NCBI GenBank assembly: GCA_013365365.1
Contig: JABVXU010000012.1
Location: 372,001 to 436,000, forward strand
Reading direction: 5' to 3'
Length of the DNA stretch: 64,000 nt
Origin: Cruorifilaria tuberocauda
Taxonomy: Eukaryota > Nematoda > Chromadorea > Rhabditida > Onchocercidae
Shown here: positions 22,309 to 57,556 of the stretch, piece after piece
How positions within the stretch are numbered: the stretch's first letter is position 1
How the letters are laid out: the number at the start of each line of letters is the position of its first letter
Notes under the pieces: generated by a model
Told to the model about the DNA's origin: nothing
The model's input: the letters and a program-made list of their open reading frames with translations, nothing else
The model's database searches: none
Position numbers and translations under genes: made by a program

Positions 22309-25300
22309 ATGGCATTGAAGCGTCTGTTTGCAGTGCTCTTCCTCAGCTGTCTTACAACGATGGTTGTGCTCTCATTTACACGTATCTTCACGCGTTCTAC
22401 AGCAATAAATTTATGGAGAAGTGAAGAAGTTACGCTGAAGCCTTCAGCTGTCACAGTTCTTACTACCACAGTTCCCACTGCTACCGCAACTACGTCGAAC
22501 TACGACGATAAGGTATAGCTTATAATTATTTTCTGGCGACGGAATCCAATGACTCTTCTATTCTTCCCTACAGGAGATGGTCATTTACTTGAATTACCAC
22601 ATCTAACGATTGAAGAAATATTCTTAAAAGAAATCAGAACGAATTTAAGATAGTAAAATTCCTCTCAAAGAGAAAAATGAGAATTCAATTTCATTTCTAC
22701 AGCAATGATCTGAAATCAGCAAATGAAAATTCGTTTCGATGAGAAAAACAAGGAAGTAAATGGAAGTAATCAGGAAAGGGAAAGAGTTATCAAGACAAGT
22801 TGGATTAGTCTTTTGCATCTCATTCCTTGCAACCTTTGAAGTAAGTACTCGTCTCATTTGCAGACATATGTAATGGCCGCCTATATAACTTCTTCCTCAG
22901 TGATAAGATTAACGACAATTCGCAAGTGTAAGACGATTATTAGACTCCGTTTTCATCTGAGGATAAATCAGTCTAAATTCCTAACTATTCCACTGATTCA
23001 TAAGCCAATTCTAAAGTGTCCATGGTTCTACGCCACCAAGTTAGTTCCTTTTTCTTGTCATTCATTACCTTTAGTTTATTGAGTCAATGAGGGATATTAT
23101 TACACAAATTTAGTTTATATTCAGGTGTGATTTTGTCGGCTATTTTGCGATAACAGTGCGTCGGAAAGATTTGGATCAGTTGTTAATGATAAGCCATAAA
23201 AAGTTACCGAAAGCTTTCATATCGCGGATGGATAGGCCTTCATTACAAGTGCCAGTTGTACTGCAGGAAGCACGTGTGATACCGAATCGACCGCGGAAAC
23301 ATTACCTTGCTGTCTGCTTGCAACCAATCTTCTTATTAGCTGATTGGACCTTACTCGTGCAGTTTTTCGAGGTAGTCTGAACATTTTTTAGATAGTGAAG
23401 TAATAAGTAATAAACTCTTCTAATTGAAAGCTGATGTTGTTTTGAATTCATAAGCCTTCTCGACTAGCAGATTTCATCATCAGAAATATATCCACTCTCC
23501 TTATAAAATGTTTACAGATTTGGATTGCACAAGGTGTCACCAAGTTTTGTGTATATGTGCAGTCAATGACCCCTGAAGTTGATGCACTGCTACGTGTTTA
23601 TGAGCATTCAGAAGACGTGGAAATTGAACGAGTTAATTGGGCTCCATTACCGACAGGTGACGTTACTTCACATGAAAATGATCCGAATTTACGGATTTAT
23701 AGGACTGAGGTATGACATTCTTTAATTTCACGAGGCAATTTGACAAATCAATTACTTAGGGTGTTTTTGTTGCTAAGAGACTAAGAAATAGTGAATGTAT
23801 TCTCAGCAATGAGTGGATTTGCCGGTTGATTTTTCCTGATATCACTGCAGAATTCTTGAATTGTTTAAAAGAATGACGGGAAAACTTGTTGCTACATTTC
23901 CTTTTGAAGGTATAAGTTAAATTACTTGCAATTTGGCTAGAAATCAAGTGGAATATGATAGAGACTTTACCAAACACTTTTTCAAATATCCAAAATGTCA
24001 TTCAGCCGCGCTAAATGAAAATTCATTCCCGGGAAAGGACCATTCCCTGCTAATAAGACAACCTCTTCTCTCGTCAAAAACGCAATTATTAGTGCTTCTT
24101 CTAAGGTTCTAAGAGAAACTGCGTTCCTTTCAAATAAAAATAAGTGTGAGGCCTCACTGCTTCCACGTATTACGTCGAGTTCTAAATCGCCACCAACTCA
24201 TTTCTCTGCTCTACAGGTGACCACTTCCATTAACGATTGTCTTTTACGAAGTCGCGGACATGCAAAATATGTGATTTCTTCTGATCTCGATGAAATTGTG
24301 GTGACAAGTAAAGAGTCATCTTTACTTAAATTACTGGACAAGTTGCAGAAGAAATTCGAGAAATCTGCGGCATTTGTAATTCGTAGCAGTTTTGCGCTTT
24401 TTGAGGTTAATGTCTTTGAGGAATACCTCAGTTTCTTTGCTTCATTAATTTTCCTGGAAATTAATTTTCCTTCATTAATTTTCCTGTCACAAAGCAACAG
24501 AATATAATAGAGCCAATATTATTTTTACAGTCTATCAAAACAGAAATATGATGAACCATCTTATAAGACAATTGCGCTTCGTATTGAATGCCATATTAAT
24601 CGTGGAATTATTGTGAGAAGAGAGGGAATGAGATGAAACCGGAACTATATGGCTCATAATTCGAGAGAAGCGGAAATGTGACGAACAAAATTTTGTCGCA
24701 AAATTTGAATAATAAAAAATATGATTGTTTCCAATCATATCTTTTATTATTCAGATAATGCTGTCAATGACTTGTGCAATTTCTAGAATCACTGGGCTAA
24801 TGTTTCTAAGCCATCGGATATTGATTTCAGTGGTTTCGCAAATATTTCTCTGGAAAACTATGTTTGGCCGGCTGGTTTTCGTAGCAAAGTAAGTCTTCAT
24901 TTCAGAACCTGTAATTCCTATCATTTAAAAATGATGTTACCTAGCTTGATTATATCTGACTTAATTGAACAGATATGAGTTACTGATAGAATAACGATTA
25001 GAAGTGATTACCTACCTTTCTTTCTGAAATTTTTACTTTTACCATGTTTATTGTAATATTTCAGGTAGTGATGATTCCGGAGCACATATACAGTGCACAT
25101 GTACATCAGGTATTACAACCAGAGCCTGGAAAGCTTGTAACGATCGTACCACCTGAAACTGCTCTTGTTTTTCACTTAAGGTTATTGAAGTTCTCAAGTG
25201 TGAATTACCATAAGTTCCACTGAGTCTGCCAAAAATTCTAATTATGCGAGCGATGAGTGAGTGAAAGTTGGTAACGCTTAAATAGGTAGTAAATGAAACA

Positions 25301-32507: not shown

Positions 32508-35615
<3,108 letters not shown>

Positions 35616-35789
35616 ATGATATTTTTGATGCATTGTAAAAAAGCTTGACATAAATTTCTTTACACCCCATTTGTATTACACCCCATATCTCATATATTTT
35701 TCATTGTAGTCCTGCTATGCTTACGTTCAGAAGAAGCATAAAGATTGGGAGCTGTACCGGGAAGTAGTGATTCTGATTGAGATGAGCTT
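35616..35789 (+). promoter_or_regulatory. Short intercistronic gap with acceptor and two small upstream ORFs
   Basis: Only 174 bases separate the Tip60 stop from the ATG used for the FANCM-like gene. An acceptor-like ttttcattgtag ends at 35709. Downstream of it are two short out-of-frame ATG frames (35717-35767 and 35782-35817). The spacing suits an operon junction. The upstream ATGs mean the chosen start of the next gene is uncertain. Confidence 0.4.
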
Positions 35790-38700
35790 ATGTCATTGTT
35801 TGTTGCTCAAGATTTGATCAAGATTTATGGTGTTGATAAAGGTATATTGTACATTATGATATATTATTTCATGATCGTTCCAGTAAACCAGCCTATTCCT
35901 AATCAGTAATTCTACTTCTATTTTGGTACTGCAAGGAAATTCAAAGTTTCCTTCCTAGTTTGTTTATTAAATTGATTTTTAGGAAAAATTTTAAACTTCA
36001 TTACATGTCATTAAGGATCTGTAGATAGATGAATTATCCCGGATTCATTTGTTATTGTCTTTACTCAAGATGTAATGTAGCGCCCTATCTCTATTTTACA
36101 CCGCTGCAAATGTTTAAGTTCTGTAGAAATTAGACATCGAATATTCACGTTTCCAGGTATTTATATGGAACCCTTTGGACTTCCTCATTTGCGAGTTGGA
36201 GAGGCGGTGATAGCACCTATGATATCTGGTCGGAAATACAAAAAGAACGTCTTAGATGTTTCAAAGTTAGTCTTTTCGACTATCATGCACATTCACATGT
36301 TATTCACTAAGATAAGGTAAGGTGTTTTGCTTCAAATATCATTAGTAATCATGTGCATTATTTTAATTGCTTGTTTGCTCTACATCTGTGGATAATGCTC
36401 GATCTGACACATACTTTTCATTCCAAGGATCACAAAAAAAGACATCGATATATAAAAAACCTGTAAAAGTTTTTTGACATTACTTCGAAAACATAATTCT
36501 TCCCAAATTTTCGATTATGTATTTTACAGGTTGACTAAATCCCAACAACTATCAATGCATCATCTATACTATCCTGTAAATGCTCCTGTCTATCATTATC
36601 AGAAGAGGCTAGTTTTGGATTCCGTATACAATAATATGTTGATAACACTCCCGAAAGAACTTGATACTTTCTTCATTGGTGCCATTACTATGCTCAATTT
36701 TCACAGGTACAAACTGTTTTATAAATGCTGAAAAATAAGAAATTATAGAAATTCTGTGTATGGCATTGACCTTTGTGATAACTTTAATATTATTTGCTTC
36801 ATTGTTGATTTTTCAGTATGTGAAATACAGGCATGATTTCTTCTGTATTAAAGGAGTAGAATGCTATCCTGTGCTATGAATTCTATGGAATAGATCCTTG
36901 TTTTGTTTTCTGCTTCCTCCAAAAAAACAAATGCTATATCTCTGTAGCACTCTTGCAAGACTATGGAAATATATCTTTTTTCCTCCCGTCATTTTGGGTA
37001 GTTGTTGATTAAAATTTACATCCTGTAAGAATTTCCTGCCTTTCTTATATTTTCTCAATTGTTTTCTTATATATCGATGTCTTTTTTCTGATCCTTAGAA
37101 TGAAAAGTATGTGTCGGATCGAGTATCATTCACTGATGTAGAGCAAACAAGCAATTAAAATAATGCATATGATTCCTAATAATATTTGGAGGAAAACATT
37201 TTACCTTATCTTAGTTAATTACAGATGGTTTCCGAAACAAAAGGTAGTGTGCATATGCAAAAATGCAGAATTATCCTTGAATGCTGCAAAGCGGTTCGTC
37301 GAAATTACGGGTCATTCACAAAGTATTCGCGTACATGCCAACCTGAAAAAGGGTGGTCGTCATCCAAAATGGATTGAGCAGAACATCATATTTGCTACCG
37401 CGGAGGTTTTTGCATGTATTAGAAAAATTATGAATTCATTTAAACTTTGTGAATGCAATTAGAGTAAATCGTCTCTGGTCGATTAAAGTAGTAGGCAAGC
37501 AAAGAGTATTTATTAGCGATTTTCTTCGCATATAACAAACGATAAGAATACAAAATTTGTATCAACTAATTGGAAGTATTTTTTGTGGAAAAATAATATC
37601 GAATATTTCTTTCCTCTTTTTTTCATCTTCAAAGTATATGTTAAACTCTGGAATAAAAGAAATAATAATTCATTTATTTTACCGTTAACCTTTCGTTTTT
37701 TTTTTCGACTATTAAATTTAAGGGAAATTTTGAAAATCTATATCTAAGAATATATTATTGCGCAGGCACAATGTTTAATTCGAAACGGTCGCTTGATCTC
37801 TTGATTTATTATACCTACTAGCGTTTAAATCACCGGTTTTAGTTCTATTTGTAGCATATTAAATAAATGAGTTGTTTGATAGGAATAAAATTCTAATCAA
37901 CCAATAGATATTGCACTGAAATTTCTAATTCTTAAGTATCTTCAAAACTTCTAAAATATTAGCTTGAGATTGTGAGTGGATGGTGGGATGCTACTTTAAA
38001 GCAAATTAAATTAATCAGTAGTCTTCTATCCTAAAATCCAACGAAACAATTTGAGAAGCTGGATTCTGTTCTAGAAATTAATTATCAATCTTAGACTTCC
38101 CTACGAAATCTCACAATCTGCATACTCTCCATCGACTTCTACGGAACTATGGTTCTTACAAAGCTGTTCGTTTTCTTCTTTTAAAAAAGTAGCTTCATAA
38201 AACTATTTTTTAAGACATTTTCTCCAAAAAATTAATTAATTTTATCTCGATATATTTGCCACTGTATGTCGCAAAGGAAGTTGGATAATATTTAACACGA
38301 TGGTGACCAGTCAATTTCATAGTATTACTGTTACAATATTTGTTATAATTTAACAAACAATGGATTCAGTTCATGCTTGTGCAGCATGCAGAGAGATTGG
38401 CATTTGCACCGAATTGTGCATAAATGAACTTCCAAAATCTTAAACATAAATAGGAATTGAGTTATTATGTCTATCTTGAAGCCTACATTTTCCATCTGAA
38501 AAACACAAATTATTTTTAGAACGTAATTGAATCGAATAAGCGGGAAAACACGATGACTAACAAATTATTTTAATTTTATATTTTATGTGGTTGAACTTTA
38601 CGTGGTCCAGAACTAACTCATATATTATTACTGTTCGTGAGTATTTTTGGGCAGGATTTATCTGAATTTCAAATAATCTGCAAAGATATACTCTTTCAAT

Positions 38701-41700
38701 TTTAGGCGCTCGTTAATGATTTCATGGGCAGAGAAGAGCTTTCAGAAATTTGTTTGCTGGTTGTGGAAGATGCCCATCGTGCCATCTCTGGTTCTCATCC
38801 TTTATCTGAACTAATTCGTGGTTGTATTCTTGAAAAAGTCAGTTATTGATTGAATCAATTGTAGCATTTCTCATTTGGTGACATTACATCTAATTTTCAG
38901 TAAACAGGAGATGAAAAAGGGAGATCACAAACCGCTTTTGTTTTTTTATTTTATTGTTTATTCAATTAAAAAAAATTTTTTTTCAAGGCGAAGTTTCGTG
39001 TTTTGGCTTATACGAACTGTAAGGTGGATAAAGTCGGTCAATTACAATTAATTGTGATGAATCTCCAAATCGATTTGATCCGATCACTAAGCTCTATAAG
39101 GAAAGAAGTTTCTTTAGCTGTCGCTTCTCCGAGAATGTATAAACTCTATGTAACCATCAGTGAAGATATGCATCGTGTTGGTAATGAACTACTGAAAGTA
39201 TATTATATTTTATTTCTTTTTTTGAAATTATAGAATTACTAATAAATCATGTAATCACGGGGTTATGTACGTATTAAATCTTTGAAATGATAAAAGCCTA
39301 GAAGGAATGAACTTGATAGATCTTTCATTTTGAGAATTTTTCAATTAAAAGCATAGGAAATGGAAGTTTTATTAAGTAGAAAGTAATACTTCTGAAGAAT
39401 TTTTCTTCAGTTTGTCAAATCTCATGTTTTCCAATGTCATTGCTCTTCAGGCTATGGAACCCATTGCAGCTTTATTATATGAAGGTTGCATATTTCCTAC
39501 AAGTGATATAAAGAAAATTGTCAATTTTTCAACAAGTTTTTTGCAAAAAAAAGTACAAAATGGGCAAAGCCATTTGGTAGAAATTTATTGGGATTTTTTC
39601 GAACTTCTATCAGCATATGATATCCTGATGTGCGATGGTTTGACCGCTTTCAGAAATACTCTTCAAGGTTGTAATTTTCGGAACAGTAATTTTGCAGCTG
39701 TATCAGTTGCCTCAATGAAAGTTTTAAAGCTGGTTTTCTAACAACAGATATTATTGGACACATAGATATTTTTCAGCATTATCCACCATGAGCACGACGA
39801 TTGCAAAAATCACTCGGTCGAATGATTTTTTAAGAAAGACTTGTTTTCTTCCGATTCTTCCAAGGTCTGATGATCTGCAGTGCCACAAACTGGACATGCT
39901 AATTACATTACTGAGGAAAACTCGCATGTATTACGGTACCTTATTAATGATTTTCATTCTTTTGTGAAGAACGCCTTAATTATCAACACGTAATGGATTG
40001 CAAGAGTTTTTAACATTTTTAGGTGACCAGAAGTCAACGATAATAGTGCTGTGTAGAGATCGAGATCCTGCATTTGTTACCAGTCTTCTTTTGTCGATTG
40101 AAGCACGGCTTTCTAGCGAAGAATATGAATTTGCTTTTTTCCTTTTTAAAAGTAATTTCGAAAAAGACTCTGTGACAAAGTCTTATCATTTCCTTACCTA
40201 TTATATTTTCCTTTTGCATTCATCTCACCATCGATCTTCTTTTTCTGGTCCATTTGTGCTCAGATTATGTATTACTGATTAACTGTCAAGGTAATTTGTT
40301 CCAGGAAACGATCACCAGGCAGAAATCTCGGAAGATACAATAAAGGTATGGATAGTTTGCATTTTGTGCATTTTGTTTGGAGCCTAACTGCATTATAGTA
40401 TTGTTCATTTATATTTCATAAATTTTTTATTTTATATTAATTTTAACAATTTTGATTAATAATCTTAATGAGAATAGTTTTATATTATTCGTATGTTTAT
40501 TATAAAATATTACAGGATAAATTATGCAACGTTGTCATTGTACCATGTGGTTCTGATGCAGTTGAGATTAATATTGATTATGTAGATTCCATAATTTGTA
40601 TGGATGAAGGGTTTGCTTTCTTTAGACTTTTCTTGCTTTTTATGTAAAACTTCCTTAATTTAATAAATTGAACATTTACACGATTATATACTGCTTGTTA
40701 TTTAGTCTCTGTTCGCTGCATTATACAGGATTTATCAGAGTACGATCAGAAGGAAGTCTTTCTGCGCTCTGTTCTGAAGGCTATGAAACGGTATGGATAT
40801 GAAACGCATATTAAATATGAAGCATCTGCAAGTTAATGTTAGAAATAGGTTTTAAAACTCAGCAAAATTTTAATGTTTGCGTAGAAAACAAAATATATTT
40901 TACTCAATTTATTACTTAAGCGCTAGCACCAACCAAGTGAAATCGTGAAAGTAGGACTATGTTGGTAATGTGCATTTTAGAATATCTGCAGTTTCTTGAC
41001 AGTTGACGGAACCATTGATTACGTTCAAGCAGATCACATTAGAGGCATGCAGTTATGTAACGATGTATTGCCGATGTTGCCACTTAATATCACTCCTGAA
41101 ATTACGGAATACTGGGCTCAGAATGTTGAGGACAAGTTGATTCACTTTCTTTATTTGATAAATGAAATTCAACTGCTGAAGTAATATTACAATTGACGGT
41201 TGTTTCTGTTTCAGTGAAGGTTTGTTGACGATGGTTCAACGTTTAGATTTTCAAGAAAGACTTGCTTCCAGTAATCCATTAAATAGGTTAAATTTAATTG
41301 AGGTTCGTTTTTCATTTATTTAATTTTCATTTTTTCCTATGAGATGAACTCTCGATAAGCGAAAATTAACAAATGATGAGCATCAGTTTTCAATCTTGAT
41401 AAACACTGAACAGTTGACTTGAAACTTAAGCAGAATTTTTCCTCCCTAATCGTATATGTTTATATGAAAAACTATCAAAATTTGCTTTTCTTTAAATTTT
41501 TATACTCTAATGCTTATCTTTTTTATCAGGACAATAATAGTTTACTGAATTTTTGTATGAAAGAAACGTTTTTATGGCAAGATCGTCTACAGCGTTTCAC
41601 ATTGCTTGGTCACAGTATTAGCGCTTCTGGTTTGACAAATATTTTCGGCAGAGATCCGAAAATTTTGGCCAGACAAGTTTTAAAGTATGTTTTAAGATAC

Positions 41701-42536
41701 CTAAATTATTCGGTATAATTCCAGTGACTTTTATAATGCGGTTTTTTTTATACCACTTTACATATCGATCCTAATTGTTCTTTGCCGTAGATTACAAAGT
41801 AAGCATGGATTAAATTGGTTGGATGAAGATTCACAGACATCAAAAGCAGACGACGCAGACTTAGTGGAATTAAATTTCAAAAATGCTGAAAATTTAAAAA
41901 TGGAATGTTCTAGAAAACTATCTGCTCAGAAGCGAAAAGTATCAAAAGTATAGTTATTTTTAATCAAAAATTCCGCAAATTTTTATGATTAATATTTAGC
42001 AGCACGATTTTCTATAAAAGTATTGAGATTCATAAGGCAAACTAAAATATAAAGTAAATGAATTACAGGGATCATTCAGAAAATGTGGCATAACAAAGGT
42101 ACCACGCTTGAGCCGTATCGATTCAGCTAGCTTTACACTGTTAAAAGTATTAAAAACAAAGGTAGATATGTAGTCTTCTTATTTCAAATCATTTTTTCTG
42201 CTTTGTTTCATGCTTTTACATTCGATAATGCGATCAAAATAATTTATTGCAACTAACTGTAAACAATTGAGGGGGAAGTTGGTTTACTCAGATTATTTGA
42301 GAAGTTTGTTCTGAAAATGACTTTCAGATTTGACAGACTTTTTTCTTCAATTGTTGAACTGGACAAATGACAGAAGAAATACTTTTCTGCTTTTTTAATC
42401 GCGAAAATTAGTTTTATTATTTCAGTTGACAAAAAGTGATTTCGTTGACCATGTGAAAGAACAGAGCTCATATCGTGAACGTCTGGAGCAGATGACTGAA
42501 ATCATTCAGCAACTGAATGATTTAATAAGATTATGA
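35790..42536 (+). CDS. FANCM/Hef/Mph1-family protein with degenerate helicase motifs (predicted pseudo-helicase)
   Basis: Eighteen exons join without a stop into 781 residues: 35790-35841, 36157-36265, 36530-36706, 37225-37405, 38706-38837, 38988-39197, 39451-39667, 39777-39935, 40023-40151, 40305-40345, 40516-40610, 40706-40790, 40981-41135, 41215-41302, 41530-41684, 41791-41947, 42069-42161, 42426-42536. Alignment to FANCM is clear at FIGAITMLNFHRWFPKQKVV (human has AAVVMYNFYRWFPSGKVV), ALVNDF, the VVEDAHRA box, the helical insert, CHKLDMLITLL, IDYVDSIICMD and FLWQDRLQRF. ATPase residues are lost: the Walker A loop reads LPKELDTFF (about 94-102), DEAH is EDAH (194-197), SAT is YTN, and motifs V and VI are unrecognisable. 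No ERCC4 nuclease or HhH domain follows; the last exon looks coiled-coil. Known FANCM remodels stalled forks and anchors the Fanconi core complex. Here only a DNA- or partner-binding role can be inferred. The 5' end is the least certain part. Confidence 0.75.
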
Positions 42537-43676
42537 TCTTAAAGCTTGACACACTTTATTCGCTTCAGCCAAAATTTCCGAATTCATACTATCTAATAAT
42601 TGAGAGCATGTCATCCCAGTATATTCTTAAAGTTGTCTTTTATTATCGTAACACTCCTAATTTGTACAGTAAAATATAGTATCAAAGAAATATTTAGCAA
42701 AAAATTTGCTTTCGCTCTACTTTCTGATTATTGAATATATTACCTGGTACTCCTATTGCCCATTGATGAACCTGATGCTATTATTTCTTGTAAGTTTAAG
42801 AACCATTACATACCCCATTTTGGAGGGGTATAAAAGATTCTGCCCTTAAAAACATTTGAAAAAAAAGAAAATTTTGGATTTCGTATACAAGGCACGTTCC
42901 ATAATGAAATCTGTAGTTCAGCATAACAAGGTATTAATTTTAGGATTTTTTCTTTCGAATACTTATTTTAAAAGTGATGTTAAAAAATTAAATAAGGTTG
43001 GTTTCTTCTAAAGTCTTTTTGAAAATTAAATTAACGATGAGAGTCGAATATTTAAATACTGTAATAGTTAAACACTTTTTATTTCATATCAAGTGAACCA
43101 CCAAAAGGATAATGCCTTTAATAATTATTGAAGAGAGCGGAAAATTTTATTTCTAAAAATTATTTTACTGTTCCTGTTTGTCTTGGAAGTTAAAAAAGTT
43201 AAGATTTTGTGATTTTGTACGAATCTTTGCTCATTAATATGGCATTTTTTCGTCAGAATAAATGCCAAATGTTGAACTTTTGACATTAAAAGGATATTTT
43301 CATGCGAAATAATCCACAGTATATTTTTCAGTTATCGTTTCATTATCCAAAGTTGAAAGGTTGGGAATATTTTCTCCAGAAATCTGAAAATGAGTGAACA
43401 AAGGGAAAAAATTGATTGAATGAAAACTGTTATCAGTTAATCCATGACTGATTGAGATTTCTCACAAAGTTTCATCCTTTTTTATTGATAGTTTCTTATG
43501 CTCCAGTGGTCCAATTACACACTATAAATTCTTTAATTCTATATAAAGAAGTTGTATTATCTTGTTTCTATAAATACCATAGGTAAGGAAAATATTAGCC
43601 AGATTTAGTGAAAAAATGGGAAAGAGTTCACATTACATTTTGATCTTGCACTTTCAGGTGGCGTCTAATAAAACGA
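42537..43676. other. Intergenic stretch before tRNA-Pro
   Basis: Low-complexity AT-rich DNA. I see no exon or repeat. It contains the 3' flank of the FANCM-like gene. The minus-strand oligo-T tract just below the tRNA is a suitable Pol III terminator. Confidence 0.45.
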
Positions 43677-43748
43677 GGGCTGAGCCGGGGATTGATCCCG
43701 GGACCTCTCGCACCCTAAGCGAGAATCATACCACTAGACCACTCAGCC
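43677..43748 (-). tRNA. tRNA-Pro (anticodon AGG)
   Basis: Read on the minus strand, 72 bases fold as a cloverleaf. The acceptor stem is GGCTGAG with CTCAGCC and discriminator C. The D arm contains GGTCTAGTGGTAT. The anticodon stem CTCGC/GCGAG encloses loop TTAGGGT with anticodon AGG. The T stem CCGGG/CCCGG encloses loop ATCAATC. The body from the D arm through the anticodon arm matches eukaryotic tRNA-Pro. No intron is present. The T loop has A instead of the nearly invariant T at position 54, which also changes the B box. A TTTT tract follows the 3' end for Pol III termination. Confidence 0.93.
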
Positions 43749-44912
43749 CCTTCCCACTAATTTTCAGACTTTATTTCATTGTTAAAATATTGGAGCAATT
43801 GAAGATGGAGAATTACAATAATGGGAGGCTTAGATAAATTTCACTTTCTACCATTCAATGTTCATCGGAACATTCGACGTGCGTTCTCCATCGAGTTGCT
43901 TCATCGTTCAGATTGACAAGACAGAAGGCTCGAATTCTGGTTCATCTACCCACCCACTGGACTTCTGGTGAATCGGCTTCTTGTCACCACTTACAACGCA
44001 TTCTCTATACTACCTGTCGCTAAAACTTTTAATTACAAATAATAATTGTCAAGCATTCTTCAACACATACCACTACTCATCTATTATAACATTCATGACG
44101 ATATGGTGGGGAGATTCACGAAGCTGAAAGAAGTGTTTCGTATAGTTGCCAGGTTCCTGACTTCATGTATTAAGCTTGCTAATAAACATTACGCTCAAAC
44201 CTATGGGAAATCTAAGAACGTATCTTGGTCATGAAACGAATATTACTAATTTGTCATCTCTATTCCGTCACTATCAGTCACGCATTTTTCAATTTCCAAT
44301 AAAAGTTTTGAAGACTTTCGAGTTTCGATGATGGTATCGTTCCGCTTTAGCGGACTTAATGTGATTTAGTTTCAGCCTTGGTAATAAAATTACACAATGA
44401 AACTGCCGTTCAGTCATACATACCACCATAACATGTTACATTCTTCGATCATTTTATCTTTCATTCATATATATATTGTTTTATTTCACCACAGTACAAC
44501 AAAAGTTCAGAAGTTAGAACCTAATGAAACATCAAAAAAATGCAAATCGCTGAATAATAAAATTAACAAGAAAACAAGGAACCGAAACCGGTTTTCATTA
44601 TCACATTTGAACTTCAGCACGGTGAAACAGTAACTTATAAGGCACTTAGTATTTGTGAAATTCATTCCTCAAAAATCTATACGATTGATTCATCATAAAC
44701 TGAAATATGTAACGAAAGAATGAATAGGAAGAATAGAAGGTTAACAAAAAAAGAAAACAGACAATTTTTATTATTGCTGCTAGTTAAGCGTCACTGAAAC
44801 TTGTCTTTAATTATGCAGCAAGTATGGCACTATCACATGAAAGACTGCTCTTCTTTTATCACAACAACAATCATTTCCCATTTTCAATTCATTTCAATAA
44901 ACAAAGATTAAT
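43749..44912. other. Intergenic stretch, tRNA-Pro to POLRMT 3' end
   Basis: No exon series seen. Open frames at 44046-44234 and 44397-44633 have no recognised motif. A TTTATT at about 44767 reads AATAAA on the minus strand, about 140 bases past the POLRMT stop, and may be its polyadenylation signal. Confidence 0.45.

Positions 44913-53012: not shown

Positions 53013-57556
<4,544 letters not shown>

Follow-up and report, generated by a model that had tools for sequence, protein, structure and literature searches.

The window analysed here, a 64,000-nucleotide stretch of the nematode Cruorifilaria tuberocauda (positions 372001-436000 of contig C133, in an assembly of 71.7 Mb and 1108 contigs), contains a FANCM-like gene on the forward strand at 35790-42536. 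Its 18 exons are separated by 17 GT-AG introns and join into one open frame (Table 1), with a coding sequence of 2364 bases including the stop codon (42534-42536), which is a multiple of three and encodes 787 residues. An initial annotation of this DNA, made from the sequence only, had likewise joined 18 exons into a single multiple-of-three frame, and the same is found here with GT-AG borders and no internal stop. The earlier length was 781 residues, its junctions not being given. The two shifted frames of the joined exons contain 62 and 61 stops; when the letters of the same exons are shuffled, the count averages 55.8 with a minimum of 32 (500 shuffles). G+C content is 37% in the exons against 29% in the introns, and 45, 33 and 33% at codon positions 1, 2 and 3. 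Lesions of the kind expected in a pseudogene (frame lesions, lost splice sites) are absent within the 18 exons, and the 5' end alone is untidy. The exon-1 frame directly upstream reads GSSDSD, TGA, DEL and then the start ATG, which puts a stop in the same frame 9 bases ahead of the start, and out-of-frame ATGs lie at 35717 and 35782, between a candidate splice acceptor and the chosen start. Either the start has shifted inward or the end is damaged. Human FANCM has an acidic stretch ahead of the core as well.

The upstream neighbour on the same strand (33435-35615) is a MYST-family histone acetyltransferase gene (zf-MYST 80 bits, MOZ_SAS in pieces of 34 and 27 bits) with a stop codon, read by eye, at 35613-35615. 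A short operon-like spacer (35616-35790) lies between the two genes, and the distance from the MYST gene to the candidate acceptor fits what would be expected of a nematode operon. The assembly contains an SL1 spliced-leader RNA (82 bits, cut-off 75), as expected of a nematode. Elsewhere in the window are an MCM helicase gene about 12 kb downstream (54133-55183, forward strand; MCM_OB and P-loop pieces), a tRNA gene (43677-43748, reverse strand; 52 bits) and a Glyco_transf_92 piece (24019-24504, forward strand; 33.6 bits).

Table 1. Features of the FANCM-like gene and its 5' flank (window positions)
Feature	Position	Strand	Remark
Candidate 3' splice acceptor TTGTAG, possibly for trans-splicing	35704..35709	+	Ends 94 bases past the MYST stop
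Exon 1, chosen start codon	35790..35841	+	In-frame TGA just upstream (35778-35780)
Exon 2	36157..36316	+	Also matched by the protein itself
Exon 3, PVxxYQ entry and former Walker A	36530..36706	+	
Motif I position, LPKELDTF for Hef consensus LPTGLGKT	36648..36671	+	Human K117 replaced by T; counted coordinates
Exon 4, RWFP stretch as in FANCM, former motifs Ia and Ic, beginning of Ib	37225..37405	+	
Exon 5, remainder of motif Ib, motif II	38706..38837	+	
Motif II position, EDAH for DEAH	38766..38777	+	Counted coordinates
Exon 6	38988..39197	+	Acceptor TTCAAG, a weaker match to TTTCAG
Motif III position, TNCKV for SATPG/TASPG (Hef TASPG)	39012..39026	+	Counted coordinates
Exon 7, helical-insert (Hel2i-like) region	39451..39667	+	F330 at human Y332
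Exon 8	39777..39935	+	
Exon 9, RecA2-like domain begins	40023..40151	+	
Exon 10	40305..40345	+	
Exon 11, former motif V	40516..40610	+	
Motif V position, VPCGSDAVE for Hef TSVGEEGLD	40540..40566	+	Counted coordinates
Exon 12, past the missing motif VI	40739..40790	+	QRRGRTGR absent
Exon 13	40981..41135	+	
Exon 14	41215..41302	+	
Exon 15	41530..41684	+	
Exon 16	41791..41947	+	
Exon 17	42069..42161	+	
Exon 18 and stop codon	42426..42536	+	

Comparison of the protein with solved structures (phmmer, threshold E 10) returned three distinct sequences, led by human FANCM (9el5_A, E 5.6e-24, residues 84-339) and archaeal Hef (1wp9, E 1.9e-7, residues 97-446). The third and last is unrelated (E 0.86), and none is RIG-I, MDA5 or Dicer. 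As the human FANCM core also finds its best match in the assembly in this same gene, the membership in the FANCM family proposed earlier is supported. Profile scores are low, with 46.3 bits for NCBIfam Hef NF010337 (equivalog cut-off 610) and 19.9 bits for Pfam DEAD (cut-off 26), the latter in keeping with a helicase core without motifs. The helical insert region aligns, keeping 3 of the 13 Hef-conserved insert columns. Neither an ERCC4-type nuclease fold nor HhH was matched by Pfam in the full protein or its tail. The last 238 residues, searched for an MHF-binding segment, have no Pfam match and a single PDB match that is not meaningful (E 1.8), and no new domain was found in the tail by either search. 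A scan of viral contigs with the protein gave no lead.

To describe the state of the helicase motifs, the protein was aligned with human FANCM and 49 archaeal Hefs. The Hefs came from the best 80 loci of 426 relatives, 71 of which loci yielded ORFs with G.GKT and DEAH, and were chosen for an ORF longer than 600 residues, motif VI and a full LPTG.GKT, a selection that biases this control towards canonical Hefs. One further comparison used 41 of the 50 listed references. The Walker A lysine and both glycines are replaced in motif I, motif Ia reads ICKNAEL (Hef LAPTKPL), Ib TAEALVND (TPQTIEND), Ic HA (TG) and motif II VEDAHRA (FDEAHRA), and with the absence of motif VI the arginine fingers are absent too. 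The initial annotation had described every helicase motif as destroyed. This applies to motifs I, Ia, Ic, III, V and VI, whereas parts of DEAH (A-H), of motif Ib (T and ND) and of the entry (YQ) survive; the PKELDTF and EDAH that it reported, and the loss of V and VI, reappear in our alignment with Hef and human. Motifs Ia, Ic and V are DNA-contacting parts of the canonical SF2 groove. Conserved residues flank the changes on either side in the same frame, so a frameshift artefact does not explain them. Human K117 and D214 correspond to T and E, and mutation of either in human FANCM abolishes the ATPase (PMC12263834). The phenylalanine at human Y332 would be a mild change, and a single residue proves nothing. 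Judging from the motifs, it is nearly certain that the protein has lost its motor, in agreement with the loss of ATPase chemistry first suggested.

Scanning 34000-44500 for the motifs in six frames gave 12 short, chance-like strings (GKT 4 times, SAT or SGT 7 times and GRIGR once, the last on the opposite strand). None coincides in frame and position with the gene's own motif, and DEAH and motif V did not occur. Alternative exons restoring the motifs were on this basis rejected for the scanned region.

We also searched the assembly for another FANCM. At E 10 the protein matched its own exons only (17 of 17 matches within its own gene). The human FANCM core gave its best match in exon 3 of the same gene (E 0.001), and all its matches were weak, the others falling in two RIG-I-like genes and a gene of Ski2 type (4 of 4 candidates). 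Ten matches came from the Hef profile (10 of 35 candidates scored), with a RIG-I-like gene at the top and the FANCM-like gene not listed. Two of these profile matches (C1 and C288) cover both helicase halves and were set aside as RIG-I-like after individual reading of their translated frames; both have an intact Walker A and DECH or DEAH. C125, matched over the nuclease part of the profile alone, was taken unread as XPF-like, and the human-core match C285 was judged Ski2/ASCC3-like by eye. The Hef-profile matches C444, C488, C665, C881 and C138 were left unread, as were, individually, the 40 DEAD-profile matches (32 of 96 candidates scored). None of the own-protein, human-core and Hef-profile searches of the 71.7-Mb assembly found an intact second FANCM, for which the initial annotation had advised a search, and the FANCM-like gene is the sole copy detected. 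An intact FANCM is expected to outscore the FANCM-like copy and is taken as absent from the assembly, on searches that had no positive control; an assembly gap is also possible.

The survival of the frame can be set against neutral drift. In simulations run until 10 of 16 motif residues had changed (transition biases of 4 to 1, 180 runs), a mean of 29-38 stops accumulated and never fewer than 7; with 4 of 16 changed, the mean was 13-17 and the minimum 1. The observed number is 0, read with the caution that the chosen exon borders could conceal a stop near a border. The simulation assumes that the motif residues were freed at the same time as the rest of the protein, and it leaves out insertions and deletions, the inclusion of which would make it stricter. 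The survival of the frame argues for selection after or during motif loss, in line with the selection suggested by the initial annotation.

Identity to human likewise speaks for a selected frame: outside the motifs it is 54/218 (25%), equal to the mean of 25% (21-30%) for the 49 archaeal Hefs, while inside the motifs it is 11/37 (30%) against a mean of 78% (70-86.5%). It is less clear that the motifs were lost in particular. Among 54 columns conserved in Hef and human, the protein keeps 6/16 in motifs I-III and 18/38 elsewhere (Fisher p 0.56), and with wider motif sets 7/21 inside against 17/33 outside (p 0.26) and 10/28 against 14/26 (p 0.27), so that the Fisher test for motif-specific loss is negative with all three sets. 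In the second domain, 0/16 motif V and VI columns are kept against 16/48 others. Over the compared part, human FANCM keeps 54 and the FANCM-like protein 30 of 78 Hef-conserved columns. Of 116 core-hydrophobic columns 84% are still hydrophobic, and in the 69 comparable with human the values are 94% for human and 83% for the FANCM-like protein. Drift simulated from the FANCM-like sequence leaves 70% hydrophobic at 0.45 changes per site and 87% at 0.14, and if drift was as short as the latter value, this test does not separate selection from drift. The protein seems to be under weaker constraint than a working FANCM, yet not free.

Part of the pathway was detected elsewhere in the assembly. Two exons at L111:1276-1617 splice to a CENP-S/MHF1-like protein, QFAKHAKRSIVNISDLRLLFRRNENM, which scores 39.4 bits (cut-off 28) and matches Centromere protein S (4e44_A, E 1.7e-7). 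The human MHF1 counterpart binds FANCM. A VRR_NUC domain of FAN1 type is also present (45.5 bits). The FancD2, FANCI_S4 and CENP-X profiles had no match in the assembly, and none of the 14 controls, all prokaryotes, matched either, so that the lack of matches does not demonstrate absence of the genes. Brugia malayi, a filarial worm, has an annotated FANCD2 gene (PMC4986938), and the absence of FANCD2 from C. tuberocauda is therefore not to be assumed.

We consider it moderately likely that the gene is a FANCM ortholog turned pseudohelicase, whose product would serve fork or crosslink repair as a passive platform. Both RecA-like domains and the helical insert would persist as a diverged fold, and with the ATP site and the arginine fingers gone the protein would be unable to translocate or branch-migrate DNA. 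The platform would be tethered through the insert, MHF1 and other partners. Since motifs Ia, Ic and V are gone, any DNA binding would probably take place through the insert or MHF. A scaffold or DNA-binding role, as proposed by the initial annotation, may still apply, although the loss of Ia, Ic and V together with the ATP site, and the similar retention outside and inside the motifs, speak against it. Also counting against the platform reading are the low retention of Hef-conserved insert columns (3 of 13), the untidy 5' end and the missing FANCD2, FANCI and CENP-X matches. According to PMC12263834, three ATPase-dead forms of human FANCM (K117R, D214A and V555F) lose branch migration and keep the stimulation of FANCD2-FANCI ubiquitination and FANCD2 foci, whereas Y332A loses the stimulation and deletion of Hel2i the foci. 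The ATPase-dead mutants are still sensitive to crosslinkers (same source), which indicates that human FANCM falls short of full function once its motor is lost. In C. elegans the loading of FCD-2 requires FNCM-1, although an E3 core complex is reported not to have been identified in that species (PMC9097270). By analogy with the human and C. elegans data, a motor-less FANCM may plausibly serve as a loading platform. More tentatively, at somewhat lower confidence, a nematode lineage may keep FANCM as an obligate pseudohelicase from which the motor was removed and the platform kept, possibly throughout a clade.

A less likely explanation is that selection on the motor ended first, a minor role was kept for a while and the gene is now dying, its 5' end being already damaged. 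The main support for such late decay is the in-frame stop just upstream of the start with the out-of-frame ATGs before it. The wide loss of conserved residues, inside and outside the motifs, and the missing FANCD2, FANCI and CENP-X matches (in profiles that matched none of the prokaryote controls) point in the same direction. The 787 open codons, 17 intact introns and lack of any internal lesion speak against it, as does the number of stops predicted by drift since the onset of motif loss. Exaptation to a role away from the fork, for example in chromatin regulation with a histone demethylase, appears improbable, as no new domain was found in the tail and the MHF1-like gene, with a human counterpart that binds FANCM, is retained. 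It would fit the lost DNA-contact motifs and the position close behind a MYST acetyltransferase gene, and for C. elegans FNCM-1 an interaction with the demethylase SPR-5 has been reported (Kim et al. 2018, cited in PMC9097270). That the protein is still an ATPase, through unusual motifs or an unseen exon set, is very improbable: EDAH retains an acidic pair and A-H, but the Walker A lysine and both glycines are replaced, the arginine fingers are missing and the six-frame scan offered no replacement. An assembly or base-calling artefact is hardly credible even in a single assembly of 1108 contigs, as many separate in-frame substitutions are spread over different exons with no frameshift within them.

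The FANCM-like protein resembles the known FANCMs (human and C. elegans FNCM-1, the comparison resting on the human sequence) in the order of the core segments, the NFxRWFP stretch and an alignable helical insert region, with human as the best match, and differs in the lack of the ATP site, motifs Ia, Ic, III, V and VI and any sign of the C-terminal nuclease-like domain. With archaeal Hef it shares a helicase core alignable over about 350 residues; unlike Hef it falls far below the NF010337 cut-off, has no nuclease half that could be found and has lost the motifs. The RIG-I-like helicases of the same genome belong to the same SF2 subgroup but have intact Walker A and DECH/DEAH, their naming resting on a reading of the translated frames. 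The human K117R, D214A and V555F mutants (PMC12263834) are alike in that the motor is gone and a platform function possible, but they are single laboratory changes and not, as here, a natural near-total loss of motifs. No publication describing motif loss in a nematode FANCM came up among the titles and abstract openings listed.

In the one FANCM detected in this nematode assembly, nearly all motor motifs have been lost in nature while the frame stayed intact, and the protein may serve today as a platform without motor activity. Designed mutants and patient variants separate the motor of FANCM from its part in activating the Fanconi pathway (PMC12263834), and the gene described here would, if our reading is true, be a natural counterpart of such laboratory separation-of-function mutants. 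Retention of the protein after loss of the motor in a species would reveal which function of FANCM is indispensable, and this question would be testable by rescue of the C. elegans fncm-1 laboratory mutant.
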